64,000 nucleotides of DNA, taken from positions 7,755,001 through 7,819,000 of the forward strand of contig NC_092677.1 of NCBI RefSeq assembly GCF_964355755.1, read 5' to 3'. The stretch comes from Antedon mediterranea (Eukaryota; Echinodermata; Crinoidea; Comatulida; Antedonidae). The notes beneath the pieces are model-generated. The model was not told the origin of the DNA, made no database searches, and saw nothing but the letters and a program-made list of their open reading frames with translations. A program made the position numbers and the translations under genes. Shown piece after piece: positions 26,247-56,765 of this stretch (its first letter is position 1; each line of letters starts with the position of its first letter).

Positions 26247-26309
26247 TATGCGCTACAAATAACCCAATATGTGCTGTAGAATTGGACAATGAATTGAACA
26301 ACTGATTGA

Positions 26310-26440
26310 CCAATCAGAGCAGCGGAAAGCGTTCCAAAAGTTGAACAATCAGAGCACTGAAAAGTGACGTAATCAGGGCATTAGAAAAATTGTTCCAAAT
26401 TTGTCATTTTGACCAATCAGAACACTGAAAAGTGACGTAA
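26310..26440 (+). promoter_or_regulatory. CCAAT/CRE-type promoter region of the transposase gene
   Basis: CCAATCAG occurs at 26310 and 26413, a close AACAATCAG variant at 26345, and TGACGTAA (ATF/CREB-like) at 26365 and 26433. The second and third boxes sit in a duplicated CAATCAGARCACTGAAAAGTGACGTAAT module about 68 bp apart. It lies upstream of the first predicted donor (26611). The same block recurs 7,556 bp further on in each unit. The transcription start is not determined. Confidence 0.5.
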
Positions 26441-27425
26441 TTAATATGTGACTTCAACAAGTTTTTCACAACACAAACAATGATGAGATTTTGTCCAGAG
26501 ACTTACATGCGACAACATCTTTTTACAAATCCTCTAGACTTATTATTATTAATTTCAAGGCGAATTCTGGTAGTAGCTGTATTCAACTCGAACGTGTACT
26601 TGCATTAAAGGTAAGAGCGAAATTGATTTCATGCTTGAAATCGGCATTTAAAGTGTTGATAACTTGTTTGGTCTAGGCCTAGCCATAGTCAATAGAAACT
26701 ATGCCATGGCCTAGCAAATGTGTTTGTATGGGTGCCGACGCTAATTCTTGTTGGCGGTAGTCTGCTCTGTGTGTGGTAAAATGCATTTGCTATTATTACT
26801 TATCCCCCTAATTACCAGTAGGCCTACATATATTTCATAAAGTATTAACAATAACGCATGCCTTTATAGGTTAGTTAGGGTTAGATAGTGTCACTCGACA
26901 CTTACTTTAATTAATGTATTTACTAGGCCTATATAGCCTAGGCCTAGCTAGTAGGCTAGATAGAAAGACCTCTAGGTAGGCCTAGATCTTTTTTGGTTGC
27001 CATGAATTGTAAGTCAAACCATGGGCCTGTAAGTGCTAGGCCCTAGTAAGATGCTACCTACTTAAAGCTCCCTGTTATTTTTTTTCTTCAAAACTTACTA
27101 CAGTAGTTTAGACTAGGCCTAGGCTAGTATTTATCGTAGAACCATCCCATAGTAAATAAATTTAGTTTAAAGTAATTAAGCTATTCTTTAAAGTTTAATT
27201 TATTTAATATTTTAACAATCCTACTACTAGTTAGACTAGCCTATGTACCCTGTAATAGATTTTAGGCCTAAACATAATTTTAAACTATAAACAACTAAAT
27301 GTGTGCTGTATCAGAATAGCATCCATGGGAAACAGACTAAAGCCTTGTTCACATGTCAACCCTTTTAATTGATAGATAAACAATTTAACTTTTATTATAA
27401 TGATTGTTTAATTAAGTGTAGGCTT

Positions 27426-27542
27426 CAACTCTTTGATCTAAAGCATTCGTTTAATTAGGCAATCAACTGTATTTGTGGATTTAGATAAGATTCTCAAATA
27501 ATTTGATTGCATTAAAGGAAGTGCTCAGGGATCAAAGAGTTG
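27426..27542. repeat. Foldback element in intron 1 of the transposase gene
   Basis: CAACTCTTTGATC at 27426-27438 is exactly inverted at 27530-27542, with further imperfect pairing inside (GCAATCAA and TTTGATTGC). It looks like a ~117-bp MITE captured by the larger transposon and is repeated in every unit. Confidence 0.5.
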
Positions 27543-27966
27543 ATACATACACTGTTTAATAAACAAAGATTATTCAGTTTACTCTAATTTATGTTGTAAT
27601 TCTTTATATAGTTTTCTTAATTGAAAAAAAAACATAATTATTCATATGTAATATTTTCTTAATTTAATTTAGATAAAATAGTTTGTTCTTAGTAGATATG
27701 TTTTAATGCTATATGTAATTCATTTTATTAATATTTTACATTTAAAGTCTTGGTCTACTATTAATTATTACTTGAGAAATTTTAACCCACAGATATTTTA
27801 TTTTATTTAGATTTGATTTTCTTTTATTTACAGCCATTTACTACAACTGCACGGTGCACAGTGGCATTATACGGGTAAAATTTTCTTTTTTACATACTTT
27901 ACTTACATATATTTTTGCCTTTGATCAGTTTTTTTAGTTTTGCAGGTGTTCAATAGACAGTACAGT

Positions 27967-30900
27967 ATGTTCAGACCAACTTTTCGGCGCAGTGAAGAGG
28001 GTGCCTTAATTCTTGAAGATACATCTGCTGCTGTAGTATTTAACAGCTTGAGAAAACGACCAACTGGCAAGTGTCTAACTCCTGATGATGTACGCCAAGA
28101 TGCCTTGAAGGAGGTGTGCAGGCTGGGTGGAAACACCAAAGATGAATGTGATGTGTTGGGCTGCTACAAGTTTCAGCATAGTAAATACAGTGGACAAACA
28201 TTCAAGTGGATGGTCGAAAATGTACTGGAATATGCAGTATGTTTTGTTATTAAAATGGCTAATGAAATTCCAAGTACAAGTTCACTTAGTATTAACAAAT
28301 TCAACTTTAAGAGGTACTTGGAGTCTTTCCCAGAAGGCAAAGAAGCCATAGCAATGAAAGAAATAAAACGCCGCAGGAAATGCCCAACTAGACAGACATC
28401 GTACATACCTGTTGGTATTAAGCTACAAAAGGTTGAGGATGTCACAGATGAAACACTTTCTGGTACTGATGTCTTTGATGCTTCTTTGCAACCATCAACC
28501 TCATATGCACCAGGTAAGACTTATTCCATATTTGTGTTTTTTGTGCATTTTCTAAATTACAAATTTCAGGTTTTGCATTTTTAGTGCCTGTGTATGTTGT
28601 AGGCTTGCTGGGTTTACGTTTTTTTTTATGCATTCATTTATACTCAATCATAAAATCGTGTTGTTTAAATACATTGTTTTATAGCATACTGTAGATAGCG
28701 AATGAAGTAGTAGTTTACTGCTAAATATTCTTTAATTTTCCGTCTTACAGCTCAACCAAATACATCTTATGAACCTGTTAGTACTATGCCATCCACTACA
28801 ATAACTATCAAACAGAGTGAAGGTAGTTTATTTCAGTGTAATTTTAATTATTTTGTTTGATTTTTAAAACTAGAAAATGAAAATTACATAATGTAGTTTC
28901 ATAAATTATACAATTTTGTTTTGGTTTTTCTTGCAGATTGTCTCATACCAGATAAATGGAAGAAGAACTTGCCCGAGATCGATCAGCAGTGGATTTCAAA
29001 AACCTTATTCAAGAAATCGAAGAAGGGGACTGCAGAGTTGGATTCAACTAAACTCAAACAACTTTGGTATTATCCACCTCAACCGGATCCGCTCAACAAA
29101 AACATACCCATGGCCAACAGTTACTTCGGTCATCGTCTTCTTCTTTGGTTGCCCCGCAAGACTTGGCAGGTCAAGCTGGTCTGCCCTCGGCCAGAATGCA
29201 AGAGCTATCCACTAACATCAGGCGGCCTCCATGGAATCGTTCGTCCGGTCCTGGATTTAGACTGCCACTACTTTCTTGCAACAGAGCAACTGAGGTGCTC
29301 TAATTGCAAACAAAGACAAATTGGCTGGAGTGAAAACATTTTAAAGCAACTTGATTTAGAACATCGCCTTCAGTTTCCTGTTGTACTTTCGTATCACTTG
29401 GCCTGCGACAACCGGGTCCTGCAGCTTCTAAAGTACCGCGGTCTCGGTAACAGTCCATCACAGCTTCGCCAACAAGTCTTAGAACAACACACAAGGCGGT
29501 GGAATGAGAGAGTGGCTCTCTACTTAGAAAATTGCAAGAAGTTCTGTGGTTCTCGTGATGATTATGTCATTGCTGCTTCTAAATTTGATGAGGTGTCTAA
29601 AATGATTCCTGTTCCCTCTGTCCAATGGTTCCTTACCATCTACTGCAACGAAGTAATGGGAAGAATCGACGAACTCAAGGCTTCTATCACATCGACGTTC
29701 GGAAGAGTGTTGAAGATTGACTCGACCAAAAGGGTAAATAATTTATAAACAATACTATTTCTGCAATTTACTTTTAATTATTTTAATTTTTTTTTTTTTG
29801 CAGATTGTGGGGAAGCTTTCTTCCGAATAAATTTGTTTGGGTTTTTTTGCAGATTGTAAGGAAGCTAGCCGGTCGTGCATGTGGAACAGGAGCGTGGGCA
29901 ACAAACGTCGGAAATGAGTACGGCCAGGTGCTCATTACAGTCCTGACTGCTGCAGAAGGATGTGGCTTAAACAACATGACAAACGGCATCATTAACCGAT
30001 ATGCTTTGGCAGGCGTACCTCCTCCCGAGATTCTCTACGTCGACCGTGACTGCTGCGGTCATTCAAGCATAAGGAAGATGTTCAGCGCCTGGCCTGACAT
30101 GAAAATTCGTCTGGACATCTGGCACTTCATGAGGAGAATTGCTGCAGCTTGTTCAACAGAATCACATCAGTTGTATCCGATATTTCTCAAACGTCTTTCC
30201 GCTTGCATTTTTGAGTGGAGCGCTGACGATGTTGAACGTCTGAAGCTCGCCAAGCGTGAACAGCTCATTGCAAGCAAGAAGCATTCCAACCCAACAGACG
30301 ACATCATATTGAAAAACATCAGCAAGAAGGAGTATGCTTTACATTGTCGCAGGACAACACGAGGGACTCGCGAGACTGCCAACCTAATCCGAGAGCTGCT
30401 GACTTCCCTCGATGGTGAAGAAGGCCGTGACACAATGGGCGTCCCACTCTTAGACTCTGAACAGACCTGGGATATCTGGAGCTCACAAGAGCGACACATC
30501 GCCTGCATCCAGGATCCAGAAGGCATCCCGCTCTACACAAAAACCAGTGAGATGCTTAAGGGTGGAGTTACCTTGCCAGTATATCGTTGCGCAAGAGGCT
30601 CCACTTCTTTGGAATCGTTTCATCTTCATCTTAACAGGTTTATTCCAGGTACAGTATTACTTTTTATTTGGTATCTACCAAATCTTCAAACCGATCTACA
30701 GATTTTTGTATTATTTCATTATTATGGATGTTTTATTTTTTTCTCAGGTGAGCGTGCTAGCGACTTACATTTCCAAGCTTACCTGATGGATGGACTTGTT
30801 CGATGGAATGCAAACCGTGCACTAGCCGCTACCCAGTCTGGAGGACCCATCTCCAGTACATATAGTGGACTGCATCAGCATGCTCTCAACATACTGGCAG

Positions 30901-32569
30901 AGCAAGTGATTGGCAAAAAAGTGTACAAAAGTTTTATCATTCCAAACAAGTACACTGGAGAACTCATCGGAGTGGAGTACCTGTACAACCAGTCGAACAA
31001 AGTGCTCGAAACTCAATTTCCTGTCAAAACAGATACCATTTATGATGAAGACTTTGATGAAGAAATTTACACTTTTGATGTTGATGAAGGGTATGATGAC
31101 AAGACTCAACCAGACTACAAACCACCTAAGCGTTGTTTTAAACCTCGAAATGCTAAAGAACCCTCACCACCCCAGCTGGAGCCCTTGCCTTCATGTGACG
31201 ATAATGATGATGATGATGGTGAAGGAAAAGCAGCCCTTTTTGACACAGTGAGTTAAATTTGTATCATTAGCTTCTACCTCACAAATTTTGTTTCTGTTTT
31301 GAAATACAATGCACGAGTCTGATTATATATTTTGTTTTCATATTTTACAATTTAGGAACTTGAGGATTCCACTGGACCGGACAACATTCCAGGCTACGCC
31401 AAAGTTGAAGCCCTGGCAGACTACCTTATGCAGTTTAAGGAAGACAGTGGAGTGATAAGTCAAAGTCATGCTGAACATGTCGCAAAGTTGTGGAACAACC
31501 TGGATGCTTATGACAAAACCATTAAGCGCAAAGCACGGCATCAAGATTACCTGACGAAAGGCAGGTTCAAGAAAAGTAAAACTACTTCCGTAATACCTGG
31601 TGTCGAAAGCACTCGACGGTAAGGCAGTTTCCAGCGTTTTTTACTTTGTTGCATGATGTGTCTTAAATCTAACTTGTTTCTTTGTTTTTTTTTTAAAAGA
31701 TGCTTCTTAGGTCAGAACACCGGGCCAGCTCAGTGGCCGGACTGCAATCGATATATGGAGTGCATTATTACAAAACTATGTGAAGCGTATCCATCTACCG
31801 TATCTATCGAAGGTAAACGTTTCCAGCGCTGGCCGCTCATTACCAAAGGCTACAAGAACATTCGTCGGAAAGTGCTATCGAATGGACACCTGATGTTGTT
31901 TGCTAAGCTTCAGTTGATGGAGATAAATCGTACGACACTCATCCAGTGGTGAGTTTTTACTTGTTATTGATTGTTATTTTACGCTACAGTAAATACATTA
32001 AAGTTTTTAAATACTGTGTTTGATTTATTTTCAACAGGTACAACAGAACGTCAAAGAAGCAAGAGCGGCAAGTGTTGGAATCTGGCATCTCGGCAACAAT
32101 ACCCAAACTTGTCTCTGATAAAACCCTACTTGAACCTTTAACCAAGCCAGCGGTGCTAAACGTTCATACAAGCGCTCCATCTTTCACATTTGTCCTACCA
32201 AAAAACACTTCCGGCCTAGCGACTCTAGGAAACAGACCGTCGATCCCAGTTCCTGGCGAGATAGCAAAACCACCACCGTCAGTCCCTGAGGCTAGCAGTA
32301 CTCGTATTCCTAGAACTACCCTCTTGTACAGAAAACGAGTGGCTAAAGACATATCGGAAGGGAAACCGATCAAAATATACAAACCAAGAACGTCTGCGAT
32401 TGTGTGCTCAAAGTGTAAGCAACCAAGATTAAATAAGAACCACACTCAGTACTATGGAAATTGGTATTGTGCTGCAACATCTGATGTGACTTTTAAAGAA
32501 TGGAAATCGGCTATGGTTGCCATCCGTCGCCTTCGTCAAGAGAGGAAAAAAAAGCAGCAAAAAGAATGA
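27967..32569 (+). CDS. DUF6729-type, DDE transposase-like protein, copy 1
   Basis: Eight coding exons: 27967-28513, 28751-28822, 28937-29733, 29853-30648, 30748-31247, 31356-31618, 31700-31948 and 32038-32569. Together they give 1,251 residues with every junction in frame. Non-coding exons are likely at the end of 26610 and at 27834-27874. The first exons encode a GQTFKWMVENVLEYAV segment. Exon 3 of the CDS (residues 207-472) has the DUF6729-like part with paired cysteines (LVCPRPECKSY, LRCSNCKQ). Candidate catalytic acids are D468 (KIDSTKR), D536 (LYVDRDCC) or D560 (RLDIWHFMRR), and E726 (STSLESFHLHL). An acidic stretch lies near 890 and a CxxC-H-C zinc-type motif at 1198-1219. I recognise the family from memory; the transposase role is inferred from the acid triad and the unit's structure. 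The start ATG is the first in frame, although the frame is open further upstream. Confidence 0.75.
29792..29860 (+). promoter_or_regulatory. Duplicated 3' splice acceptors, 49 nt apart
   Basis: Two acceptor blocks of nearly the same sequence, TTTTTTTGCAGATTGTGGGG and TTTTTTTGCAGATTGTAAGG, end at 29803 and 29852. Only the second keeps the reading frame. The first, with the longer pyrimidine tract, adds eight codons and then TAA, giving a product of about 480 residues that keeps the DUF6729-like part and loses most of the catalytic region. The arrangement is unchanged in all four copies (also near 37360, 44916 and 52472). Confidence 0.65.
30649..30747 (+). other. 99-nt intron, open in frame
   Basis: Donor CCAG/GTACAG and acceptor TTTTTTCTCAG/GTGAG fit an intron splitting a glycine codon after FIPG. 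Its length is a multiple of three and it has no stop, so retention would insert 33 mostly hydrophobic residues just after the candidate catalytic glutamate. Confidence 0.6.
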
Positions 32570-33799
32570 TTCCAAATGATTGTTGTAGCCATGGATAGTT
32601 TTTATACTGTTTCGTATATCTTCAATTTTTATTTGTTCTGTGATTTTATATTCACTTTTTACAAAATATTTGTATTTTATGCAATTTGGCCATTGGGCCA
32701 CCATATCTAATGGTATTCTGAATGTGCAGTAAAGTTAATAATAATAATAAAAAAAAAAAGTTTTTAATGCTGCCAAATCCAAAGAGCAATAATTAATGTT
32801 GTAAATTATTTTGTAATTTTTATAAATTACATTCAGTTTTAATTATTACATTATAATTTACATTATATCATTCATTGCACTTTGTATTTGAAGGTCCCAA
32901 GCCCTTACAAAAAAAGCAGAGGGGAAACTTTTGCAGTTGAGTGTACATTAAATGGTGAATTCTATATTCTTGTCAAGACTATTTCCTTAGTAGTGTAAAT
33001 TCTCAACTATTTTATATTTATTTCAAGAGCAATTCCACTACAATTCATTTTGATGTGAATCAAATAATTCATTCCACCAATTCTAATAATATATTTTGAT
33101 AATAACTCATACTATAGAGGTTATTATCCAGTAACCTTCAGTTACTCCTCTTACAGTTACACATATCCTATGATACCATGTGGCCTAGAAAAAAAGCCCC
33201 AGACAAAGTTAACGGTAATTTTGTCTACATTTTTGAAAAAGGCTGACTTATCAAACTACTTGGAATATGGTTGGCCAATCAGAAGTCAGGGTGGGTTTTT
33301 TAAATAGTTACATAGTATTTAACATATATATACAATTTTGATTGACAATTGTTCACACCCTAAAAACACAACAAAAAACGTCTCGTCATATTAAAAGAAC
33401 TAACGATTAATACAACATACATATTGTAGTCGAATTTACCGTGTTTTAAAAAACAAAATTCATGTACTGTAGTACAAGGATTTTTCGAAAATTGGATGAA
33501 AAAAATGTCGACTTTCTCAACTTTTAACAAAAAATTTAAGTCTTATTATTCTATTATTTAATATTTTTATTCATTTAATACATCGATCATGTGATAAACC
33601 CCTAAAATTGACAGTTTTTAGTATGCCGGTATTCAAAACAACCTCCTAGATTCTTGGGTCCCATTGGCCAATTGTCTAGTTTCCTCATTATCTAATGACC
33701 CAGTCCAATTCAGTTTTAATGACCCCACATGGCTCTGTCCATTTCTTGTCCATTTATTTTTGCGTTCTTTACCGTTTCGAGTGAGAAGATTGAGTTGTA
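32570..33799 (+). other. 3' non-coding part of the transposon unit
   Basis: AATAAA lies at 32746-32751, followed by an A run, about 180 nt after the stop. Beyond it are AT-rich DNA, a TACTGTAGTACAAGGATTTTT stretch near 33463 that resembles the GTACAGGG MITE ends, and the terminal TTGTA at 33795-33799. No further gene is seen. Confidence 0.5.
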
Positions 33800-33809
33800 C
33801 CCTATGCGC

Positions 33810-36800
33810 TACAAATAACCCAATATGTGCTGTAGAATTGGACAATGAATTGAACAACTGATTGACCAATCAGAGCAGCGGAAAGCGTTCCAAAAGTTGA
33901 ACAATCAGAGCACTGAAAAGTGACGTAATCAGGGCATTAGAAAAATTGTTCCAAATTTGTCATTTTGACCAATCAGAACACTGAAAAGTGACGTAATTAA
34001 TATGTGACTTCAACAAGTTTTTCACAACACAAACAATGATGAGATTTTGTCCAGAGACTTACATGCGACAACATCTTTTTACAAATCCTCTAGACTTATT
34101 ATTATTAATTTCAAGGCGAATTCTGGTAGTAGCTGTATTCAACTCGAACGTGTACTTGCATTAAAGGTAAGAGCGAAATTGATTTCATGCTTGAAATCGG
34201 CATTTAAAGTGTTGATAACTTGTTTGGTCTAGGCCTAGCCATAGTCAATAGAAACTATGCCATGGCCTAGCAAATGTGTTTGTATGGGTGCCGACGCTAA
34301 TTCTTGTTGGCGGTAGTCTGCTCTGTGTGTGGTAAAATGCATTTGCTATTATTACTTATCCCCCTAATTACCAGTAGGCCTACATATATTTCATAAAGTA
34401 TTAACAATAACGCATGCCTTTATAGGTTAGTTAGGGTTAGATAGTGTCACTCGACACTTACTTTAATTAATGTATTTACTAGGCCTATATAGCCTAGGCC
34501 TAGCTAGTAGGCTAGATAGAAAGACCTCTAGGTAGGCCTAGATCTTTTTTGGTTGCCATGAATTGTAAGTCAAACCATGGGCCTGTAAGTGCTAGGCCCT
34601 AGTAAGATGCTACCTACTTAGGGCTCCCTGTTATTTTTTTTCTTCAAAACTTACTACAGTAGTTTAGACTAGGCCTAGGCTAGTATTTATCGTAGAACCA
34701 TCCCATAGTAAATAAATTTAGTTTAAAGTAATTAAGCTATTCTTTAAAGTTTAATTTATTTAATATTTTAACAATCCTACTACTAGTTAGACTAGCCTAT
34801 GTACCCTGTAATAGATTTTAGGCCTAAACATAATTTTAAACTATAAACAACTAAATGTGTGCTGTATCAGAATAGCATCCATGGGAAACAGACTAAAGCC
34901 TTGTTCACATGTCAACCCTTTTAATTGATAGATAAACAATTTAACTTTTATTATAATGATTGTTTAATTAAGTGTAGGCTTCAACTCTTTGATCTAAAGC
35001 ATTCGTTTAATTAGGCAATCAACTGTATTTGTGGATTTAGATAAGATTCTCAAATAATTTGATTGCATTAAAGGAAGTGCTCAGGGATCAAAGAGTTGAT
35101 ACATACACTGTTTAATAAACAAAGATTATTCAGTTTACTCTAATTTATGTTGTAATTCTTTATATAGTTTTCTTAATTGAAAAAAAAACATAATTATTCA
35201 TATGTAATATTTTCTTAATTTAATTTAGATAAAATAGTTTGTTCTTAGTAGATATGTTTTAATGCTATATGTAATTCATTTTATTAATATTTTACATTTA
35301 AAGTCTTGGTCTACTATTAATTATTACTTGAGAAATTTTAACCCACAGATATTTTATTTTATTTAGATTTGATTTTCTTTTATTTACAGCCATTTACTAC
35401 AACTGCACGGTGCACAGTGGCATTATACGGGTAAAATTTTCTTTTTTACATACTTTACTTACATATATTTTTGCCTTTGATCAGTTTTTTTAGTTTTGCA
35501 GGTGTTCAATAGACAGTACAGTATGTTCAGACCAACTTTTCGGCGCAGTGAAGAGGGTGCCTTAATTCTTGAAGATACATCTGCTGCTGTAGTATTTAAC
35601 AGCTTGAGAAAACGACCAACTGGCAAGTGTCTAACTCCTGATGATGTACGCCAAGATGCCTTGAAGGAGGTGTGCAGGCTGGGTGGAAACACCAAAGATG
35701 AATGTGATGTGTTGGGCTGCTACAAGTTTCAGCATAGTAAATACAGTGGACAAACATTCAAGTGGATGGTCGAAAATGTACTGGAATATGCAGTATGTTT
35801 TGTTATTAAAATGGCTAATGAAATTCCAAGTACAAGTTCACTTAGTATTAACAAATTCAACTTTAAGAGGTACTTGGAGTCTTTCCCAGAAGGCAAAGAA
35901 GCCATAGCAATGAAAGAAATAAAACGCCGCAGGAAATGCCCAACTAGACAGACATCGTACATACCTGTTGGTATTAAGCTACAAAAGGTTGAGGATGTCA
36001 CAGATGAAACACTTTCTGGTACTGATGTCTTTGATGCTTCTTTGCAACCATCAACCTCATATGCACCAGGTAAGACTTATTCCATATTTGTGTTTTTTGT
36101 GCATTTTCTAAATTACAAATTTCAGGTTTTGCATTTTTAGTGCCTGTGTATGTTGTAGGCTTGCTGGGTTTACGTTTTTTTTTATGCATTCATTTATACT
36201 CAATCATAAAATCGTGTTGTTTAAATACATTGTTTTATAGCATACTGTAGATAGCGAATGAAGTAGTAGTTTACTGCTAAATATTCTTTAATTTTCCGTC
36301 TTACAGCTCAACCAAATACATCTTATGAACCTGTTAGTACTATGCCATCCACTACAATAACTATCAAACAGAGTGAAGGTAGTTTATTTCAGTGTAATTT
36401 TAATTATTTTGTTTGATTTTTAAAACTAGAAAATGAAAATTACATAATGTAGTTTCATAAATTATACAATTTTGTTTTGGTTTTTCTTGCAGATTGTCTC
36501 ATACCAGATAAATGGAAGAAGAACTTGCCCGAGATCGATCAGCAGTGGATTTCAAAAACCTTATTCAAGAAATCGAAGAAGGGGACTGCAGAGTTGGATT
36601 CAACTAAACTCAAACAACTTTGGTATTATCCACCTCAACCGGATCCGCTCAACAAAAACATACCCATGGCCAACAGTTACTTCGGTCATCGTCTTCTTCT
36701 TTGGTTGCCCCGCAAGACTTGGCAGGTCAAGCTGGTCTGCCCTCGGCCAGAATGCAAGAGCTATCCACTAACATCAGGCGGCCTCCATGGAATCGTTCGT

Positions 36801-39800
36801 CCGGTCCTGGATTTAGACTGCCACTACTTTCTTGCAACAGAGCAACTGAGGTGCTCTAATTGCAAACAAAGACAAATTGGCTGGAGTGAAAACATTTTAA
36901 AGCAACTTGATTTAGAACATCGCCTTCAGTTTCCTGTTGTACTTTCGTATCACTTGGCCTGCGACAACCGGGTCCTGCAGCTTCTAAAGTACCGCGGTCT
37001 CGGTAACAGTCCATCACAGCTTCGCCAACAAGTCTTAGAACAACACACAAGGCGGTGGAATGAGAGAGTGGCTCTCTACTTAGAAAATTGCAAGAAGTTC
37101 TGTGGTTCTCGTGATGATTATGTCATTGCTGCTTCTAAATTTGATGAGGTGTCTAAAATGATTCCTGTTCCCTCTGTCCAATGGTTCCTTACCATCTACT
37201 GCAACGAAGTAATGGGAAGAATCGACGAACTCAAGGCTTCTATCACATCGACGTTCGGAAGAGTGTTGAAGATTGACTCGACCAAAAGGGTAAATAATTT
37301 ATAAACAATACTATTTCTGCAATTTACTTTTAATTATTTTAATTTTTTTTTTTTTGCAGATTGTGGGGAAGCTTTCTTCCGAATAAATTTGTTTGGGTTT
37401 TTTTGCAGATTGTAAGGAAGCTAGCCGGTCGTGCATGTGGAACAGGAGCGTGGGCAACAAACGTCGGAAATGAGTACGGCCAGGTGCTCATTACAGTCCT
37501 GACTGCTGCAGAAGGATGTGGCTTAAACAACATGACAAACGGCATCATTAACCGATATGCTTTGGCAGGCGTACCTCCTCCCGAGATTCTCTACGTCGAC
37601 CGTGACTGCTGCGGTCATTCAAGCATAAGGAAGATGTTCAGCGCCTGGCCTGACATGAAAATTCGTCTGGACATCTGGCACTTCATGAGGAGAATTGCTG
37701 CAGCTTGTTCAACAGAATCACATCAGTTGTATCCGATATTTCTCAAACGTCTTTCCGCTTGCATTTTTGAGTGGAGCGCTGACGATGTTGAACGTCTGAA
37801 GCTCGCCAAGCGTGAACAGCTCATTGCAAGCAAGAAGCATTCCAACCCAACAGACGACATCATATTGAAAAACATCAGCAAGAAGGAGTATGCTTTACAT
37901 TGTCGCAGGACAACACGAGGGACTCGCGAGACTGCCAACCTAATCCGAGAGCTGCTGACTTCCCTCGATGGTGAAGAAGGCCGTGACACAATGGGCGTCC
38001 CACTCTTAGACTCTGAACAGACCTGGGATATCTGGAGCTCACAAGAGCGACACATCGCCTGCATCCAGGATCCAGAAGGCATCCCGCTCTACACAAAAAC
38101 CAGTGAGATGCTTAAGGGTGGAGTTACCTTGCCAGTATATCGTTGCGCAAGAGGCTCCACTTCTTTGGAATCGTTTCATCTTCATCTTAACAGGTTTATT
38201 CCAGGTACAGTATTACTTTTTATTTGGTATCTACCAAATCTTCAAACCGATCTACAGATTTTTGTATTATTTCATTATTATGGATGTTTTATTTTTTTCT
38301 CAGGTGAGCGTGCTAGCGACTTACATTTCCAAGCTTACCTGATGGATGGACTTGTTCGATGGAATGCAAACCGTGCACTAGCCGCTACCCAGTCTGGAGG
38401 ACCCATCTCCAGTACATATAGTGGACTGCATCAGCATGCTCTCAACATACTGGCAGAGCAAGTGATTGGCAAAAAAGTGTACAAAAGTTTTATCATTCCA
38501 AACAAGTACACTGGAGAACTCATCGGAGTGGAGTACCTGTACAACCAGTCGAACAAAGTGCTCGAAACTCAATTTCCTGTCAAAACAGATACCATTTATG
38601 ATGAAGACTTTGATGAAGAAATTTACACTTTTGATGTTGATGAAGGGTATGATGACAAGACTCAACCAGACTACAAACCACCTAAGCGTTGTTTTAAACC
38701 TCGAAATGCTAAAGAACCCTCACCACCCCAGCTGGAGCCCTTGCCTTCATGTGACGATAATGATGATGATGATGGTGAAGGAAAAGCAGCCCTTTTTGAC
38801 ACAGTGAGTTAAATTTGTATCATTAGCTTCTACCTCACAAATTTTGTTTCTGTTTTGAAATACAATGCACGAGTCTGATTATATATTTTGTTTTCATATT
38901 TTACAATTTAGGAACTTGAGGATTCCACTGGACCGGACAACATTCCAGGCTACGCCAAAGTTGAAGCCCTGGCAGACTACCTTATGCAGTTTAAGGAAGA
39001 CAGTGGAGTGATAAGTCAAAGTCATGCTGAACATGTCGCAAAGTTGTGGAACAACCTGGATGCTTATGACAAAACCATTAAGCGCAAAGCACGGCATCAA
39101 GATTACCTGACGAAAGGCAGGTTCAAGAAAAGTAAAACTACTTCCGTAATACCTGGTGTCGAAAGCACTCGACGGTAAGGCAGTTTCCAGCGTTTTTTAC
39201 TTTGTTGCATGATGTGTCTTAAATCTAACTTGTTTCTTTGTTTTTTTTTTAAAAGATGCTTCTTAGGTCAGAACACCGGGCCAGCTCAGTGGCCGGACTG
39301 CAATCGATATATGGAGTGCATTATTACAAAACTATGTGAAGCGTATCCATCTACCGTATCTATCGAAGGTAAACGTTTCCAGCGCTGGCCGCTCATTACC
39401 AAAGGCTACAAGAACATTCGTCGGAAAGTGCTATCGAATGGACACCTGATGTTGTTTGCTAAGCTTCAGTTGATGGAGATAAATCGTACGACACTCATCC
39501 AGTGGTGAGTTTTTACTTGTTATTGATTGTTATTTTACGCTACAGTAAATACATTAAAGTTTTTAAATACTGTGTTTGATTTATTTTCAACAGGTACAAC
39601 AGAACGTCAAAGAAGCAAGAGCGGCAAGTGTTGGAATCTGGCATCTCGGCAACAATACCCAAACTTGTCTCTGATAAAACCCTACTTGAACCTTTAACCA
39701 AGCCAGCGGTGCTAAACGTTCATACAAGCGCTCCATCTTTCACATTTGTCCTACCAAAAAACACTTCCGGCCTAGCGACTCTAGGAAACAGACCGTCGAT

Positions 39801-44300: not shown

Positions 44301-47300
44301 GGCCAGAATGCAAGAGCTATCCACTAACATCAGGCGGCCTCCATGGAATCGTTCGTCCGGTCCTGGATTTAGACTGCCACTACTTTCTTGCAACAGAGCA
44401 ACTGAGGTGCTCTAATTGCAAACAAAGACAAATTGGCTGGAGTGAAAACATTTTAAAGCAACTTGATTTAGAACATCGCCTTCAGTTTCCTGTTGTACTT
44501 TCGTATCACTTGGCCTGCGACAACCGGGTCCTGCAGCTTCTAAAGTACCGCGGTCTCGGTAACAGTCCATCACAGCTTCGCCAACAAGTCTTAGAACAAC
44601 ACACAAGGCGGTGGAATGAGAGAGTGGCTCTCTACTTAGAAAATTGCAAGAAGTTCTGTGGTTCTCGTGATGATTATGTCATTGCTGCTTCTAAATTTGA
44701 TGAGGTGTCTAAAATGATTCCTGTTCCCTCTGTCCAATGGTTCCTTACCATCTACTGCAACGAAGTAATGGGAAGAATCGACGAACTCAAGGCTTCTATC
44801 ACATCGACGTTCGGAAGAGTGTTGAAGATTGACTCGACCAAAAGGGTAAATAATTTATAAACAATACTATTTCTGCAATTTACTTTTAATTATTTTAATT
44901 TTTTTTTTTTTGCAGATTGTGGGGAAGCTTTCTTCCGAATAAATTTGTTTGGGTTTTTTTGCAGATTGTAAGGAAGCTAGCCGGTCGTGCATGTGGAACA
45001 GGAGCGTGGGCAACAAACGTCGGAAATGAGTACGGCCAGGTGCTCATTACAGTCCTGACTGCTGCAGAAGGATGTGGCTTAAACAACATGACAAACGGCA
45101 TCATTAACCGATATGCTTTGGCAGGCGTACCTCCTCCCGAGATTCTCTACGTCGACCGTGACTGCTGCGGTCATTCAAGCATAAGGAAGATGTTCAGCGC
45201 CTGGCCTGACATGAAAATTCGTCTGGACATCTGGCACTTCATGAGGAGAATTGCTGCAGCTTGTTCAACAGAATCACATCAGTTGTATCCGATATTTCTC
45301 AAACGTCTTTCCGCTTGCATTTTTGAGTGGAGCGCTGACGATGTTGAACGTCTGAAGCTCGCCAAGCGTGAACAGCTCATTGCAAGCAAGAAGCATTCCA
45401 ACCCAACAGACGACATCATATTGAAAAACATCAGCAAGAAGGAGTATGCTTTACATTGTCGCAGGACAACACGAGGGACTCGCGAGACTGCCAACCTAAT
45501 CCGAGAGCTGCTGACTTCCCTCGATGGTGAAGAAGGCCGTGACACAATGGGCGTCCCACTCTTAGACTCTGAACAGACCTGGGATATCTGGAGCTCACAA
45601 GAGCGACACATCGCCTGCATCCAGGATCCAGAAGGCATCCCGCTCTACACAAAAACCAGTGAGATGCTTAAGGGTGGAGTTACCTTGCCAGTATATCGTT
45701 GCGCAAGAGGCTCCACTTCTTTGGAATCGTTTCATCTTCATCTTAACAGGTTTATTCCAGGTACAGTATTACTTTTTATTTGGTATCTACCAAATCTTCA
45801 AACCGATCTACAGATTTTTGTATTATTTCATTATTATGGATGTTTTATTTTTTTCTCAGGTGAGCGTGCTAGCGACTTACATTTCCAAGCTTACCTGATG
45901 GATGGACTTGTTCGATGGAATGCAAACCGTGCACTAGCCGCTACCCAGTCTGGAGGACCCATCTCCAGTACATATAGTGGACTGCATCAGCATGCTCTCA
46001 ACATACTGGCAGAGCAAGTGATTGGCAAAAAAGTGTACAAAAGTTTTATCATTCCAAACAAGTACACTGGAGAACTCATCGGAGTGGAGTACCTGTACAA
46101 CCAGTCGAACAAAGTGCTCGAAACTCAATTTCCTGTCAAAACAGATACCATTTATGATGAAGACTTTGATGAAGAAATTTACACTTTTGATGTTGATGAA
46201 GGGTATGATGACAAGACTCAACCAGACTACAAACCACCTAAGCGTTGTTTTAAACCTCGAAATGCTAAAGAACCCTCACCACCCCAGCTGGAGCCCTTGC
46301 CTTCATGTGACGATAATGATGATGATGATGGTGAAGGAAAAGCAGCCCTTTTTGACACAGTGAGTTAAATTTGTATCATTAGCTTCTACCTCACAAATTT
46401 TGTTTCTGTTTTGAAATACAATGCACGAGTCTGATTATATATTTTGTTTTCATATTTTACAATTTAGGAACTTGAGGATTCCACTGGACCGGACAACATT
46501 CCAGGCTACGCCAAAGTTGAAGCCCTGGCAGACTACCTTATGCAGTTTAAGGAAGACAGTGGAGTGATAAGTCAAAGTCATGCTGAACATGTCGCAAAGT
46601 TGTGGAACAACCTGGATGCTTATGACAAAACCATTAAGCGCAAAGCACGGCATCAAGATTACCTGACGAAAGGCAGGTTCAAGAAAAGTAAAACTACTTC
46701 CGTAATACCTGGTGTCGAAAGCACTCGACGGTAAGGCAGTTTCCAGCGTTTTTTACTTTGTTGCATGATGTGTCTTAAATCTAACTTGTTTCTTTGTTTT
46801 TTTTTTAAAAGATGCTTCTTAGGTCAGAACACCGGGCCAGCTCAGTGGCCGGACTGCAATCGATATATGGAGTGCATTATTACAAAACTATGTGAAGCGT
46901 ATCCATCTACCGTATCTATCGAAGGTAAACGTTTCCAGCGCTGGCCGCTCATTACCAAAGGCTACAAGAACATTCGTCGGAAAGTGCTATCGAATGGACA
47001 CCTGATGTTGTTTGCTAAGCTTCAGTTGATGGAGATAAATCGTACGACACTCATCCAGTGGTGAGTTTTTACTTGTTATTGATTGTTATTTTACGCTACA
47101 GTAAATACATTAAAGTTTTTAAATACTGTGTTTGATTTATTTTCAACAGGTACAACAGAACGTCAAAGAAGCAAGAGCGGCAAGTGTTGGAATCTGGCAT
47201 CTCGGCAACAATACCCAAACTTGTCTCTGATAAAACCCTACTTGAACCTTTAACCAAGCCAGCGGTGCTAAACGTTCATACAAGCGCTCCATCTTTCACA

Positions 47301-48921
47301 TTTGTCCTACCAAAAAACACTTCCGGCCTAGCGACTCTAGGAAACAGACCGTCGATCCCAGTTCCTGGCGAGATAGCAAAACCACCACCGTCAGTCCCTG
47401 AGGCTAGCAGTACTCGTATTCCTAGAACTACCCTCTTGTACAGAAAACGAGTGGCTAAAGACATATCGGAAGGGAAACCGATCAAAATATACAAACCAAG
47501 AACGTCTGCGATTGTGTGCTCAAAGTGTAAGCAACCAAGATTAAATAAGAACCACACTCAGTACTATGGAAATTGGTATTGTGCTGCAACATCTGATGTG
47601 ACTTTTAAAGAATGGAAATCGGCTATGGTTGCCATCCGTCGCCTTCGTCAAGAGAGGAAAAAAAAGCAGCAAAAAGAATGATTCCAAATGATTGTTGTAG
47701 CCATGGATAGTTTTTATACTGTTTCGTATATCTTCAATTTTTATTTGTTCTGTGATTTTATATTCACTTTTTACAAAATATTTGTATTTTATGCAATTTG
47801 GCCATTGGGCCACCATATCTAATGGTATTCTGAATGTGCAGTAAAGTTAATAATAATAATAAAAAAAAAAAGTTTTTAATGCTGCCAAATCCAAAGAGCA
47901 ATAATTAATGTTGTAAATTATTTTGTAATTTTTATAAATTACATTCAGTTTTAATTATTACATTATAATTTACATTATATCATTCATTGCACTTTGTATT
48001 TGAAGGTCCCAAGCCCTTACAAAAAAAGCAGAGGGGAAACTTTTGCAGTTGAGTGTACATTAAATGGTGAATTCTATATTCTTGTCAAGACTATTTCCTT
48101 AGTAGTGTAAATTCTCAACTATTTTATATTTATTTCAAGAGCAATTCCACTACAATTCATTTTGATGTGAATCAAATAATTCATTCCACCAATTCTAATA
48201 ATATATTTTGATAATAACTCATACTATAGAGGTTATTATCCAGTAACCTTCAGTTACTCCTCTTACAGTTACACATATCCTATGATACCATGTGGCCTAG
48301 AAAAAAAGCCCCAGACAAAGTTAACGGTAATTTTGTCTACATTTTTGAAAAAGGCTGACTTATCAAACTACTTGGAATATGGTTGGCCAATCAGAAGTCA
48401 GGGTGGGTTTTTTAAATAGTTACATAGTATTTAACATATATATACAATTTTGATTGACAATTGTTCACACCCTAAAAACACAACAAAAAACGTCTCGTCA
48501 TATTAAAAGAACTAACGATTAATACAACATACATATTGTAGTCGAATTTACCGTGTTTTAAAAAACAAAATTCATGTACTGTAGTACAAGGATTTTTCGA
48601 AAATTGGATGAAAAAAATGTCGACTTTCTCAACTTTTAACAAAAAATTTAAGTCTTATTATTCTATTATTTAATATTTTTATTCATTTAATACATCGATC
48701 ATGTGATAAACCCCTAAAATTGACAGTTTTTAGTATGCCGGTATTCAAAACAACCTCCTAGATTCTTGGGTCCCATTGGCCAATTGTCTAGTTTCCTCAT
48801 TATCTAATGACCCAGTCCAATTCAGTTTTAATGACCCCACATGGCTCTGTCCATTTCTTGTCCATTTATTTTTGCGTTCTTTACCGTTTCGAGTGAGAAG
48901 ATTGAGTTGTACCCTATGCGC
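41366..48921 (+). mobile_element. Tandem transposon unit 3 of 4
   Basis: Third head-to-tail copy, with no difference from unit 2 that I noticed. Junctions at both sides read TTGTACCCTATGCGCTACAA. Confidence 0.85.
43079..47681 (+). CDS. DUF6729-type, DDE transposase-like protein, copy 3
   Basis: Coding exons are 43079-43625, 43863-43934, 44049-44845, 44965-45760, 45860-46359, 46468-46730, 46812-47060 and 47150-47681, giving the same 1,251-residue product as copy 1. No premature stop, frameshift or splice-site change was seen. Confidence 0.75.
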
Positions 48922-51900
48922 TACAAATAACCCAATATGTGCTGTAGAATTGGACAATGAATTGAACAACTGATTGACCAATCAGAGCAGCGGAAAGCGT
49001 TCCAAAAGTTGAACAATCAGAGCACTGAAAAGTGACGTAATCAGGGCATTAGAAAAATTGTTCCAAATTTGTCATTTTGACCAATCAGAACACTGAAAAG
49101 TGACGTAATTAATATGTGACTTCAACAAGTTTTTCACAACACAAACAATGATGAGATTTTGTCCAGAGACTTACATGCGACAACATCTTTTTACAAATCC
49201 TCTAGACTTATTATTATTAATTTCAAGGCGAATTCTGGTAGTAGCTGTATTCAACTCGAACGTGTACTTGCATTAAAGGTAAGAGCGAAATTGATTTCAT
49301 GCTTGAAATCGGCATTTAAAGTGTTGATAACTTGTTTGGTCTAGGCCTAGCCATAGTCAATAGAAACTATGCCATGGCCTAGCAAATGTGTTTGTATGGG
49401 TGCCGACGCTAATTCTTGTTGGCGGTAGTCTGCTCTGTGTGTGGTAAAATGCATTTGCTATTATTACTTATCCCCCTAATTACCAGTAGGCCTACATATA
49501 TTTCATAAAGTATTAACAATAACGCATGCCTTTATAGGTTAGTTAGGGTTAGATAGTGTCACTCGACACTTACTTTAATTAATGTATTTACTAGGCCTAT
49601 ATAGCCTAGGCCTAGCTAGTAGGCTAGATAGAAAGACCTCTAGGTAGGCCTAGATCTTTTTTGGTTGCCATGAATTGTAAGTCAAACCATGGGCCTGTAA
49701 GTGCTAGGCCCTAGTAAGATGCTACCTACTTAGGGCTCCCTGTTATTTTTTTTCTTCAAAACTTACTACAGTAGTTTAGACTAGGCCTAGGCTAGTATTT
49801 ATCGTAGAACCATCCCATAGTAAATAAATTTAGTTTAAAGTAATTAAGCTATTCTTTAAAGTTTAATTTATTTAATATTTTAACAATCCTACTACTAGTT
49901 AGACTAGCCTATGTACCCTGTAATAGATTTTAGGCCTAAACATAATTTTAAACTATAAACAACTAAATGTGTGCTGTATCAGAATAGCATCCATGGGAAA
50001 CAGACTAAAGCCTTGTTCACATGTCAACCCTTTTAATTGATAGATAAACAATTTAACTTTTATTATAATGATTGTTTAATTAAGTGTAGGCTTCAACTCT
50101 TTGATCTAAAGCATTCGTTTAATTAGGCAATCAACTGTATTTGTGGATTTAGATAAGATTCTCAAATAATTTGATTGCATTAAAGGAAGTGCTCAGGGAT
50201 CAAAGAGTTGATACATACACTGTTTAATAAACAAAGATTATTCAGTTTACTCTAATTTATGTTGTAATTCTTTATATAGTTTTCTTAATTGAAAAAAAAA
50301 CATAATTATTCATATGTAATATTTTCTTAATTTAATTTAGATAAAATAGTTTGTTCTTAGTAGATATGTTTTAATGCTATATGTAATTCATTTTATTAAT
50401 ATTTTACATTTAAAGTCTTGGTCTACTATTAATTATTACTTGAGAAATTTTAACCCACAGATATTTTATTTTATTTAGATTTGATTTTCTTTTATTTACA
50501 GCCATTTACTACAACTGCACGGTGCACAGTGGCATTATACGGGTAAAATTTTCTTTTTTACATACTTTACTTACATATATTTTTGCCTTTGATCAGTTTT
50601 TTTAGTTTTGCAGGTGTTCAATAGACAGTACAGTATGTTCAGACCAACTTTTCGGCGCAGTGAAGAGGGTGCCTTAATTCTTGAAGATACATCTGCTGCT
50701 GTAGTATTTAACAGCTTGAGAAAACGACCAACTGGCAAGTGTCTAACTCCTGATGATGTACGCCAAGATGCCTTGAAGGAGGTGTGCAGGCTGGGTGGAA
50801 ACACCAAAGATGAATGTGATGTGTTGGGCTGCTACAAGTTTCAGCATAGTAAATACAGTGGACAAACATTCAAGTGGATGGTCGAAAATGTACTGGAATA
50901 TGCAGTATGTTTTGTTATTAAAATGGCTAATGAAATTCCAAGTACAAGTTCACTTAGTATTAACAAATTCAACTTTAAGAGGTACTTGGAGTCTTTCCCA
51001 GAAGGCAAAGAAGCCATAGCAATGAAAGAAATAAAACGCCGCAGGAAATGCCCAACTAGACAGACATCGTACATACCTGTTGGTATTAAGCTACAAAAGG
51101 TTGAGGATGTCACAGATGAAACACTTTCTGGTACTGATGTCTTTGATGCTTCTTTGCAACCATCAACCTCATATGCACCAGGTAAGACTTATTCCATATT
51201 TGTGTTTTTTGTGCATTTTCTAAATTACAAATTTCAGGTTTTGCATTTTTAGTGCCTGTGTATGTTGTAGGCTTGCTGGGTTTACGTTTTTTTTTATGCA
51301 TTCATTTATACTCAATCATAAAATCGTGTTGTTTAAATACATTGTTTTATAGCATACTGTAGATAGCGAATGAAGTAGTAGTTTACTGCTAAATATTCTT
51401 TAATTTTCCGTCTTACAGCTCAACCAAATACATCTTATGAACCTGTTAGTACTATGCCATCCACTACAATAACTATCAAACAGAGTGAAGGTAGTTTATT
51501 TCAGTGTAATTTTAATTATTTTGTTTGATTTTTAAAACTAGAAAATGAAAATTACATAATGTAGTTTCATAAATTATACAATTTTGTTTTGGTTTTTCTT
51601 GCAGATTGTCTCATACCAGATAAATGGAAGAAGAACTTGCCCGAGATCGATCAGCAGTGGATTTCAAAAACCTTATTCAAGAAATCGAAGAAGGGGACTG
51701 CAGAGTTGGATTCAACTAAACTCAAACAACTTTGGTATTATCCACCTCAACCGGATCCGCTCAACAAAAACATACCCATGGCCAACAGTTACTTCGGTCA
51801 TCGTCTTCTTCTTTGGTTGCCCCGCAAGACTTGGCAGGTCAAGCTGGTCTGCCCTCGGCCAGAATGCAAGAGCTATCCACTAACATCAGGCGGCCTCCAT

Positions 51901-54900
51901 GGAATCGTTCGTCCGGTCCTGGATTTAGACTGCCACTACTTTCTTGCAACAGAGCAACTGAGGTGCTCTAATTGCAAACAAAGACAAATTGGCTGGAGTG
52001 AAAACATTTTAAAGCAACTTGATTTAGAACATCGCCTTCAGTTTCCTGTTGTACTTTCGTATCACTTGGCCTGCGACAACCGGGTCCTGCAGCTTCTAAA
52101 GTACCGCGGTCTCGGTAACAGTCCATCACAGCTTCGCCAACAAGTCTTAGAACAACACACAAGGCGGTGGAATGAGAGAGTGGCTCTCTACTTAGAAAAT
52201 TGCAAGAAGTTCTGTGGTTCTCGTGATGATTATGTCATTGCTGCTTCTAAATTTGATGAGGTGTCTAAAATGATTCCTGTTCCCTCTGTCCAATGGTTCC
52301 TTACCATCTACTGCAACGAAGTAATGGGAAGAATCGACGAACTCAAGGCTTCTATCACATCGACGTTCGGAAGAGTGTTGAAGATTGACTCGACCAAAAG
52401 GGTAAATAATTTATAAACAATACTATTTCTGCAATTTACTTTTAATTATTTTAATTTTTTTTTTTTTGCAGATTGTGGGGAAGCTTTCTTCCGAATAAAT
52501 TTGTTTGGGTTTTTTTGCAGATTGTAAGGAAGCTAGCCGGTCGTGCATGTGGAACAGGAGCGTGGGCAACAAACGTCGGAAATGAGTACGGCCAGGTGCT
52601 CATTACAGTCCTGACTGCTGCAGAAGGATGTGGCTTAAACAACATGACAAACGGCATCATTAACCGATATGCTTTGGCAGGCGTACCTCCTCCCGAGATT
52701 CTCTACGTCGACCGTGACTGCTGCGGTCATTCAAGCATAAGGAAGATGTTCAGCGCCTGGCCTGACATGAAAATTCGTCTGGACATCTGGCACTTCATGA
52801 GGAGAATTGCTGCAGCTTGTTCAACAGAATCACATCAGTTGTATCCGATATTTCTCAAACGTCTTTCCGCTTGCATTTTTGAGTGGAGCGCTGACGATGT
52901 TGAACGTCTGAAGCTCGCCAAGCGTGAACAGCTCATTGCAAGCAAGAAGCATTCCAACCCAACAGACGACATCATATTGAAAAACATCAGCAAGAAGGAG
53001 TATGCTTTACATTGTCGCAGGACAACACGAGGGACTCGCGAGACTGCCAACCTAATCCGAGAGCTGCTGACTTCCCTCGATGGTGAAGAAGGCCGTGACA
53101 CAATGGGCGTCCCACTCTTAGACTCTGAACAGACCTGGGATATCTGGAGCTCACAAGAGCGACACATCGCCTGCATCCAGGATCCAGAAGGCATCCCGCT
53201 CTACACAAAAACCAGTGAGATGCTTAAGGGTGGAGTTACCTTGCCAGTATATCGTTGCGCAAGAGGCTCCACTTCTTTGGAATCGTTTCATCTTCATCTT
53301 AACAGGTTTATTCCAGGTACAGTATTACTTTTTATTTGGTATCTACCAAATCTTCAAACCGATCTACAGATTTTTGTATTATTTCATTATTATGGATGTT
53401 TTATTTTTTTCTCAGGTGAGCGTGCTAGCGACTTACATTTCCAAGCTTACCTGATGGATGGACTTGTTCGATGGAATGCAAACCGTGCACTAGCCGCTAC
53501 CCAGTCTGGAGGACCCATCTCCAGTACATATAGTGGACTGCATCAGCATGCTCTCAACATACTGGCAGAGCAAGTGATTGGCAAAAAAGTGTACAAAAGT
53601 TTTATCATTCCAAACAAGTACACTGGAGAACTCATCGGAGTGGAGTACCTGTACAACCAGTCGAACAAAGTGCTCGAAACTCAATTTCCTGTCAAAACAG
53701 ATACCATTTATGATGAAGACTTTGATGAAGAAATTTACACTTTTGATGTTGATGAAGGGTATGATGACAAGACTCAACCAGACTACAAACCACCTAAGCG
53801 TTGTTTTAAACCTCGAAATGCTAAAGAACCCTCACCACCCCAGCTGGAGCCCTTGCCTTCATGTGACGATAATGATGATGATGATGGTGAAGGAAAAGCA
53901 GCCCTTTTTGACACAGTGAGTTAAATTTGTATCATTAGCTTCTACCTCACAAATTTTGTTTCTGTTTTGAAATACAATGCACGAGTCTGATTATATATTT
54001 TGTTTTCATATTTTACAATTTAGGAACTTGAGGATTCCACTGGACCGGACAACATTCCAGGCTACGCCAAAGTTGAAGCCCTGGCAGACTACCTTATGCA
54101 GTTTAAGGAAGACAGTGGAGTGATAAGTCAAAGTCATGCTGAACATGTCGCAAAGTTGTGGAACAACCTGGATGCTTATGACAAAACCATTAAGCGCAAA
54201 GCACGGCATCAAGATTACCTGACGAAAGGCAGGTTCAAGAAAAGTAAAACTACTTCCGTAATACCTGGTGTCGAAAGCACTCGACGGTAAGGCAGTTTCC
54301 AGCGTTTTTTACTTTGTTGCATGATGTGTCTTAAATCTAACTTGTTTCTTTGTTTTTTTTTTAAAAGATGCTTCTTAGGTCAGAACACCGGGCCAGCTCA
54401 GTGGCCGGACTGCAATCGATATATGGAGTGCATTATTACAAAACTATGTGAAGCGTATCCATCTACCGTATCTATCGAAGGTAAACGTTTCCAGCGCTGG
54501 CCGCTCATTACCAAAGGCTACAAGAACATTCGTCGGAAAGTGCTATCGAATGGACACCTGATGTTGTTTGCTAAGCTTCAGTTGATGGAGATAAATCGTA
54601 CGACACTCATCCAGTGGTGAGTTTTTACTTGTTATTGATTGTTATTTTACGCTACAGTAAATACATTAAAGTTTTTAAATACTGTGTTTGATTTATTTTC
54701 AACAGGTACAACAGAACGTCAAAGAAGCAAGAGCGGCAAGTGTTGGAATCTGGCATCTCGGCAACAATACCCAAACTTGTCTCTGATAAAACCCTACTTG
54801 AACCTTTAACCAAGCCAGCGGTGCTAAACGTTCATACAAGCGCTCCATCTTTCACATTTGTCCTACCAAAAAACACTTCCGGCCTAGCGACTCTAGGAAA

Positions 54901-56469
54901 CAGACCGTCGATCCCAGTTCCTGGCGAGATAGCAAAACCACCACCGTCAGTCCCTGAGGCTAGCAGTACTCGTATTCCTAGAACTACCCTCTTGTACAGA
55001 AAACGAGTGGCTAAAGACATATCGGAAGGGAAACCGATCAAAATATACAAACCAAGAACGTCTGCGATTGTGTGCTCAAAGTGTAAGCAACCAAGATTAA
55101 ATAAGAACCACACTCAGTACTATGGAAATTGGTATTGTGCTGCAACATCTGATGTGACTTTTAAAGAATGGAAATCGGCTATGGTTGCCATCCGTCGCCT
55201 TCGTCAAGAGAGGAAAAAAAAGCAGCAAAAAGAATGATTCCAAATGATTGTTGTAGCCATGGATAGTTTTTATACTGTTTCGTATATCTTCAATTTTTAT
55301 TTGTTCTGTGATTTTATATTCACTTTTTACAAAATATTTGTATTTTATGCAATTTGGCCATTGGGCCACCATATCTAATGGTATTCTGAATGTGCAGTAA
55401 AGTTAATAATAATAATAAAAAAAAAAAGTTTTTAATGCTGCCAAATCCAAAGAGCAATAATTAATGTTGTAAATTATTTTGTAATTTTTATAAATTACAT
55501 TCAGTTTTAATTATTACATTATAATTTACATTATATCATTCATTGCACTTTGTATTTGAAGGTCCCAAGCCCTTACAAAAAAAGCAGAGGGGAAACTTTT
55601 GCAGTTGAGTGTACATTAAATGGTGAATTCTATATTCTTGTCAAGACTATTTCCTTAGTAGTGTAAATTCTCAACTATTTTATATTTATTTCAAGAGCAA
55701 TTCCACTACAATTCATTTTGATGTGAATCAAATAATTCATTCCACCAATTCTAATAATATATTTTGATAATAACTCATACTATAGAGGTTATTATCCAGT
55801 AACCTTCAGTTACTCCTCTTACAGTTACACATATCCTATGATACCATGTGGCCTAGAAAAAAAGCCCCAGACAAAGTTAACGGTAATTTTGTCTACATTT
55901 TTGAAAAAGGCTGACTTATCAAACTACTTGGAATATGGTTGGCCAATCAGAAGTCAGGGTGGGTTTTTTAAATAGTTACATAGTATTTAACATATATATA
56001 CAATTTTGATTGACAATTGTTCACACCCTAAAAACACAACAAAAAACGTCTCGTCATATTAAAAGAACTAACGATTAATACAACATACATATTGTAGTCG
56101 AATTTACCGTGTTTTAAAAAACAAAATTCATGTACTGTAGTACAAGGATTTTTCGAAAATTGGATGAAAAAAATGTCGACTTTCTCAACTTTTAACAAAA
56201 AATTTAAGTCTTATTATTCTATTATTTAATATTTTTATTCATTTAATACATCGATCATGTGATAAACCCCTAAAATTGACAGTTTTTAGTATGCCGGTAT
56301 TCAAAACAACCTCCTAGATTCTTGGGTCCCATTGGCCAATTGTCTAGTTTCCTCATTATCTAATGACCCAGTCCAATTCAGTTTTAATGACCCCACATGG
56401 CTCTGTCCATTTCTTGTCCATTTATTTTTGCGTTCTTTACCGTTTCGAGTGAGAAGATTGAGTTGTACC
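48922..56469 (+). mobile_element. Tandem transposon unit 4 of 4, right end of the array
   Basis: The last copy ends at TTGTACC (56463-56469) and is followed by CTTTGCGC (56470-56477), one base different from the CTATGCGC at the left edge and at every internal junction. The sequence then passes directly into GTACAGGG-family MITE DNA (AGGGAAATTTTCG). The element is complete; only the next TACAA start is missing. Confidence 0.85.
50635..55237 (+). CDS. DUF6729-type, DDE transposase-like protein, copy 4
   Basis: Coding exons are 50635-51181, 51419-51490, 51605-52401, 52521-53316, 53416-53915, 54024-54286, 54368-54616 and 54706-55237, giving the same 1,251-residue product as copy 1. It is intact, and this copy alone is followed by non-array sequence, so it could be told apart by its 3' flank. 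Confidence 0.75.
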
Positions 56470-56477
56470 CTTTGCGC

Positions 56478-56765
56478 AGGGAAATTTTCGAAAAATGGCC
56501 GATTTTTGACCCATTTATTTTTTGACATAAATGGTTACTATTGCATAATAAACATGCGCAGAGAGGAATAATGGGTTCTGCGCATGTCAAAAATGGCCAA
56601 TTTTCGACCTTTTTATTTTTCGAAAAAACTGGTTACTTTCCATCATTCATGCTTTTTACACAGAATGGTTATCTACTTTAGAGGATATTTGTCTACGACT
56701 ATTACTCTTAATTTACCTTTAAAAAATGGCCAAATATTGACTCTTTAAAAAAGTGTTGAGGTAAC
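56478..56765. repeat. Foldback MITE sequence right of the array
   Basis: AGGGAAATTTTCGAAAAATG, GACATAAATGGTTACTATTG and, inverted, ATGGCCAATTTTCGACC with AAAACTGGTTACTTT are the same family as at 25240-26246. The block includes the landmark TTCTGCGCATGTCAA, also found in the left string near 26160. This supports insertion of the array into a MITE cluster. Confidence 0.65.

Follow-up and report, generated by a model that had tools for sequence, protein, structure and literature searches.

Dada transposons of the described Dada-U6 and Dada-tA lineages (PMC3706591, PMC8869645) have a multi-exon gene for a DDE transposase with a DxxH motif and with CCCC and CCHC zinc fingers. They produce a 6-bp target site duplication (TSD), have a U6-like right end, occur as dimers with one TSD between the copies, and carry the hexamer TTGCGC, on one or both sides, to targets that do not have it. 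The element described here is alike in all these respects, whereas its target is a palindromic satellite of ca. 190 bp, not a small RNA gene, and it occurs as up to four near-identical units, at four loci, with a junction 6-mer that follows the left flank. Two other systems are also comparable. The bacterial transposons IS256 and ISCth4, with copy-out-paste-in transposition, form joints of right end, 6–8 bp of left flank and left end, the right end being linked to the left flank in 5/8 (PMC7780238); their transposases belong to a related D-D-(C/DxxH)-E lineage and have been named distant relatives of the Dada transposase (PMC3706591). They differ in having terminal inverted repeats (TIRs) and in losing the spacer at integration, and their joints were demonstrated biochemically, whereas those of Dada are seen here in genomic sequence. 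KolobokP multimers (PMC9587614) are likewise formed by eukaryotic DDE transposons, and either a circle or unequal crossover has been discussed for them; however, their long terminal direct repeats permit ordinary recombination, whereas Dada units share just 6 bp.

The window, a gap-free stretch of 64,000 nt from the crinoid Antedon mediterranea, contains four units of 7,550 bp, plus 6 bp each, arranged head to tail at 26254–56471, with a repeat period of exactly 7,556 over the four full units. An earlier, sequence-only reading had described such an array of four full, near-identical copies with the same junction between them, and all of this was confirmed: the junction TTGTACCCTATGCGCTACAA is found at 33795, 41351 and 48907, and the units differ by 0–2 bases. 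Over 7,550 bp, no base differs among units 2, 3 and 4, and unit 1 departs from them in two adjacent bases, AA at 27065–27066; since every other comparable copy has GG in this position, the AA is derived and arose in unit 1. The 8-bp target copy that had been placed between units resolves to a 6-bp spacer, because the 8-bp form CTATGCGC merely extends to the left where the flank by chance ends in CT. That reading also held that cut-and-paste transposons are not expected to lie head to tail with a single target copy between them, an arrangement already reported for Dada in zebrafish (PMC3706591). The element ends are TACAA...GTACCCT; the 6-mer is ATGCGC at the left edge and in the three joints, and TTGCGC at the right edge, with the array limits, outer 6-mers included, at 26248 (left) and 56477 (right). 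When joined, the outer flanks form a single continuous palindromic repeat, and the array therefore occupies one insertion site. Its features are as follows:
25234–26247, no strand: left part of the target, satellite-like repeat of ca. 191 bp, with palindromes CCCTGTAC and GTACAGGG
26248–26253, + strand: left outer 6-mer, ATGCGC, in the flank CCCTGTACT/ATGCGC
26254–33803, + strand: Dada unit 1, 7,550 bp, TACAA...GTACCCT, with its private AA at 27065–27066
33781–33803, + strand: right end of unit 1, with the U6-like GTGAGAAGATTGAGTTGTACCCT
33804–33809, + strand: junction spacer 1, ATGCGC
33810–41359, + strand: Dada unit 2
41360–41365, + strand: junction spacer 2, ATGCGC
41366–48915, + strand: Dada unit 3
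48916–48921, + strand: junction spacer 3, ATGCGC
48922–56471, + strand: Dada unit 4
56472–56477, + strand: right outer 6-mer, TTGCGC, followed by AGGG
56478–56737, no strand: right part of the same target repeat (AGGGAAATTTTCG...)

Immediately to the left of the satellite there is an open frame of 303 aa with 15-bp tandem repeats (GQPRA-like; window 23893–24804). Within unit 1 (window 33091–33310), and at the equivalent site in units 2–4, ca. 217 bp show 94–95% identity to Ty3/gypsy-like LTRs; a matching retrotransposon, with the integrase upstream of the reverse transcriptase, is located at C3:25384200–25390850. Going by this match, the stretch is a solo LTR fixed within the Dada family of the array.

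The claim that genes are intact in each copy was borne out, with one 1,251-aa protein that is the same in all four units. The gene in unit 1, which recurs every 7,556 bp, was modelled with splice sites inferred from GT-AG signals and an open frame, alternatives existing for some of them; residue numbers are those of a 1,248-aa variant of the model:
27967–32569, + strand: transposase gene of unit 1, 8 exons, 1,251 aa
Exons 1–4, + strand: 27967–28513, 28751–28822, 28937–29733, 29853–30648
Exons 5–8, + strand: 30748–31247, 31356–31618, 31700–31948, 32038–32569
28937–29733, + strand: DUF6729 exon, with the CCCC zinc finger (C287, C292, C325, C328) and the first catalytic D (D466)
29853–30648, + strand: exon with the second D (D534), DxxH (558–561) and E724
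32038–32569, + strand: last exon, with the C-terminal CCHC zinc finger (C1195, C1198, H1207, C1216)

The sole domain recognised in a Pfam search was DUF6729 (E about 1e-80), and an AlphaFold model of the catalytic exon, made without an alignment, had a mean pLDDT of 36 and was left aside. The C4 array likewise has an intact gene in both of its units, as has the solo copy at C1 11.13 Mb; the copy at C5 1.10 Mb lacks 3 nt but is open, and frameshifts are present in the one at C11.

Residue spacings were compared with those of Dada-U6_DR (PMC3706591). The catalytic D466 and D534 are 68 residues apart, the same distance as in that protein (D567–D635), and DxxH is present after the second D; the distance from the second D to the E is 190 versus 176, and the spacings of the CCCC and C-terminal CCHC fingers are 5/33/3 versus 5/35/3 and 3/9/9 versus 3/10/9, respectively. 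The 6-mers on both sides match, as expected for a 6-bp TSD, at C11, C5 1.10 Mb, C1 11.13 Mb and C5 17.12 Mb, and the element ends show no true TIRs, only a 5-bp TACAA/TTGTA match near them. Eight exons and a length of 7,550 bp also fit the description of Dada (introns, 4.7–11 kb, 6–7 bp TSD, no TIR). The array family does not show the insertion in U6 snRNA genes that characterizes Dada-U6; it sits in a satellite. Thus, matched to published descriptions and spacings, the array element is a DNA transposon of the Dada superfamily, a known kind of transposon, represented here by a family that is new and that uses a new type of target; the earlier description as a complete, intact DDE-type DNA transposon was correct. 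Our first idea, Zisupton/KDZ (8-bp TSD, fish), was discarded given the 6-bp TSD and the lack of a KDZ match in Pfam.

The target repeat, of ca. 191 bp, is satellite-like and contains the core palindrome CCCTGTACTATAGTACAGGG, of which there are ca. 687 empty copies in the genome, as counted with a pattern degenerate at the arms; no Rfam family was matched by the window, target repeat included. The same genome contains a Dada-U6 family, designated X, with ends similar to those of the array element; at C10:15949705 it lies within a U6 gene, in the antiparallel orientation described in the literature. On sequence comparison, the array family is a sister of this true Dada-U6 family. At the X insertion in U6 (C10:15949500–15958700), both flanks carry GCAAGGA where GCGCAA would be usual, as though one GC had been missing in the target. 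The right end of the array element, GTGAGAAGATTGAGTTGTACCCT, resembles the stretch of U6 that directly precedes the insertion point there, ACAGAGAAGATTAGCATGGCCCCT. The best explanation is that the array element descends from a lineage targeting U6 snRNA and now inserts in the palindromic satellite CCCTGTACTA/TAGTAC/AGGG; the family would thus show a Dada lineage shifting from the U6 gene to a non-genic satellite via the common AGGG side.

On the opposite strand, TTGCGC reads GCGCAA, the TSD of Dada-U6 (PMC3706591, PMC8869645). Among independent right edges in or adjoining the target repeat, 9/11 have TTGCGC, one has TAGTAC and one the hybrid TAGCGC; among empty palindromes with up to one mismatch, GCGC in the arm was found in one weak case. 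Since TTGCGC is the U6 target 6-mer in the orientation of the element, it was probably brought along from the ancestral U6 site. In the work of Kojima (PMC8869645), TTGCGC likewise replaces tRNA-Ala targets, in some cases on a single side, and the flank was suggested to move together with the element; recognition of the site by Dada was inferred there to involve its downstream side, TTGCGC/AGGGG. Less probably, the family inserts solely into rare TTGCGC sites, now all occupied, although this leaves unexplained why some copies are flanked by TAGTAC at one end and by TTGCGC at the opposite end.

The sequence-only reading had proposed searching the rest of the genome for other arrays or solitary copies. 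A whole-genome pattern search identified seven exact joints of right end, 6 bp and left end of the array family, at four loci (three in the window, two at C5 17.12–17.14 Mb, and one each at C4 28.59–28.60 Mb and C5 17.56–17.58 Mb), and solo copies were also found; matches with two mismatches are likely background, as a reversed control gave similar numbers. The spacer is exactly 6 bp in 7/7 junctions. The C4 array has two units, as does that at C5 17.56–17.58 Mb, whose second unit contains an insert of ca. 7 kb. The remaining array (C5:17121812–17137433) consists of three identical 5.2-kb units with 6-bp spacers that keep the C-terminal exons and have no match to the DUF6729 exon; this structure identifies the element as a non-autonomous Dada that also builds arrays. 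Units differ by 0–6 substitutions within arrays and by 11–68 substitutions plus indels, i.e. 0.15–1%, between loci of equal length class, which indicates that the array copies arose locally. The 6-mers at the four loci are:
Window: outer left ATGCGC; junction ATGCGC (three times); outer right TTGCGC
C4: outer left TAGTAC; junction TAGTAC; outer right TTGCGC
C5 17.57 Mb: outer left CCGCGC; junction CCGCGC; outer right TTGCGC
C5 17.12 Mb: outer left, junction and outer right all TTGCGC

In the informative arrays, those with differing outer 6-mers, the junction 6-mer equals the left one in 3/3 and the right one in 0/3, a left-versus-right comparison that with n=3 is weak by itself. In the window, all three joints repeat a chromosomal A of the left flank, which was probably drawn into the 6-mer when CTATTGCGC became one base shorter; therefore, the joint copies by position, taking whatever stands in the 6 bp outside the left end. 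We know of no previous description of this rule. Locus-specific 6-mers serve as barcodes showing which flank was copied, and the test needs sequence only, so that it is applicable to any genome with Dada arrays. Mixed tandems, in which a family X right end is followed by TTGCGC (or TTTGCGC) and an array-family left end, occur at C1:9395946 and C4:31831211.

The presence of the left-flank 6-mer at every joint suggests that the joint was made by the element's own enzyme, rather than by an assembly error or ordinary recombination. We consider it somewhat probable that the transposase joined the right end to the left flank and that homologous expansion then produced the array. A single copy would insert first, with the ancestral TTGCGC kept on its right side. 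In the next step, the 3′ terminus at the right end (CCCT) would be linked by the transposase to the strand at a position 6 bp beyond the left end, either on the same molecule, as an IS256-like circle junction with the circle re-entering the locus, or on the sister chromatid, yielding a joint of right end, left-flank 6-mer and left end and a local duplicate. Unequal homologous exchange or conversion among the 7.5-kb copies would lead to four units and keep them identical. We favour this joining because it predicts the observed 6-bp left-flank joints exactly, and such a reaction is the opening step of copy-out by IS256-family enzymes (PMC7780238); against it, the mixed tandems are evidence that a second element can also insert next to a first. 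Of the origins listed in the sequence-only reading, the excised-circle type stays plausible, whereas unequal exchange between short flanking duplications could hardly have made the first joint, because three arrays have differing outer 6-mers, with a joint that matches the left 6-mer in exact register.

Serial insertion, in which later Dada copies enter beside a resident one using the flanking 6-mer as target, with a fresh 6-bp duplication each time, is a less likely origin that still deserves weight. Dada is target-specific, such insertion is required by the zebrafish Dada-U1A/U1B tandems (PMC3706591) and by the mixed-family tandems found here, and at the left boundary it would yield the observed identity of left and junction 6-mers. 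Nevertheless, the resident copy still has the recognised downstream AGGG side at its right edge, and serial insertion should thus place the right 6-mer in the joint, which is seen in none of the three informative arrays. Moreover, donors drawn from the genome should differ as the loci do (11–68 substitutions), not by 0–6, and the informative joints lack the carried TTGCGC that ordinary insertions usually show.

That unequal homologous or microhomology recombination made the first duplicate by itself, without the transposase, seems distinctly improbable. It explains well the passage from two to four identical copies, such as units 2–4; however, the 6-mers share only scattered bases (TAGTAC/TTGCGC, CCGCGC/TTGCGC), and all joints are in exact register at GTACCCT/6 bp/TACAA, which at four loci argues against a first joint made by random microhomology. 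For C4 and C5 17.57 Mb, we rejected the idea that a concatemer formed elsewhere was inserted as such: the right TTGCGC would then have to derive from the target, and GCGC is carried by at most 1 of the ca. 687 empty target palindromes. An assembly artefact, which the earlier reading wished to exclude first, would need the assembler to have expanded one unit and is very improbable given the unique flanks and locus-specific spacers at four independent loci, the private bases in unit 1 and the own insert of ca. 7 kb in the second unit at C5 17.56–17.57 Mb, although the size of a 30-kb array made of near-identical 7.5-kb units is difficult to establish and the copy number of four may be inexact.

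Joining of the right end to the left flank leads to a broader and more tentative proposal, which we judge possible rather than probable: Dada may be a eukaryotic copy-out transposon with IS256-like asymmetric joints and circles, whose 6-nt spacer could enter new sites as an overhang equal in length to the target stagger. Copy-out/paste-in via a circle junction is common in bacteria; to our knowledge, it is not established for any eukaryotic DDE transposon. If true, copy-out with a carried spacer would account both for the tandem arrays and for the long-standing replacement of targets by TTGCGC. IS256-type integration normally discards the spacer, however, whereas TTGCGC is retained in the array family. 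With the joint rule, copy-out by a eukaryotic DDE element becomes a testable model; the rule also bears on the TTGCGC replacement left unexplained by Kojima.

Two other Dada-related arrangements were observed. At C2:369639 and C2:370269, two Dada right ends lie 630 bp apart, both flanked by TTGCGC-AGGG and without left ends nearby; this pair is probably a duplicated fragment in the satellite. Lastly, C8:15022795–15043500 contains a direct repeat with a period of 13,297 bp, 100% identity over the 7.4 kb compared and a diverged DUF6729 gene, possibly another tandem duplication containing Dada.
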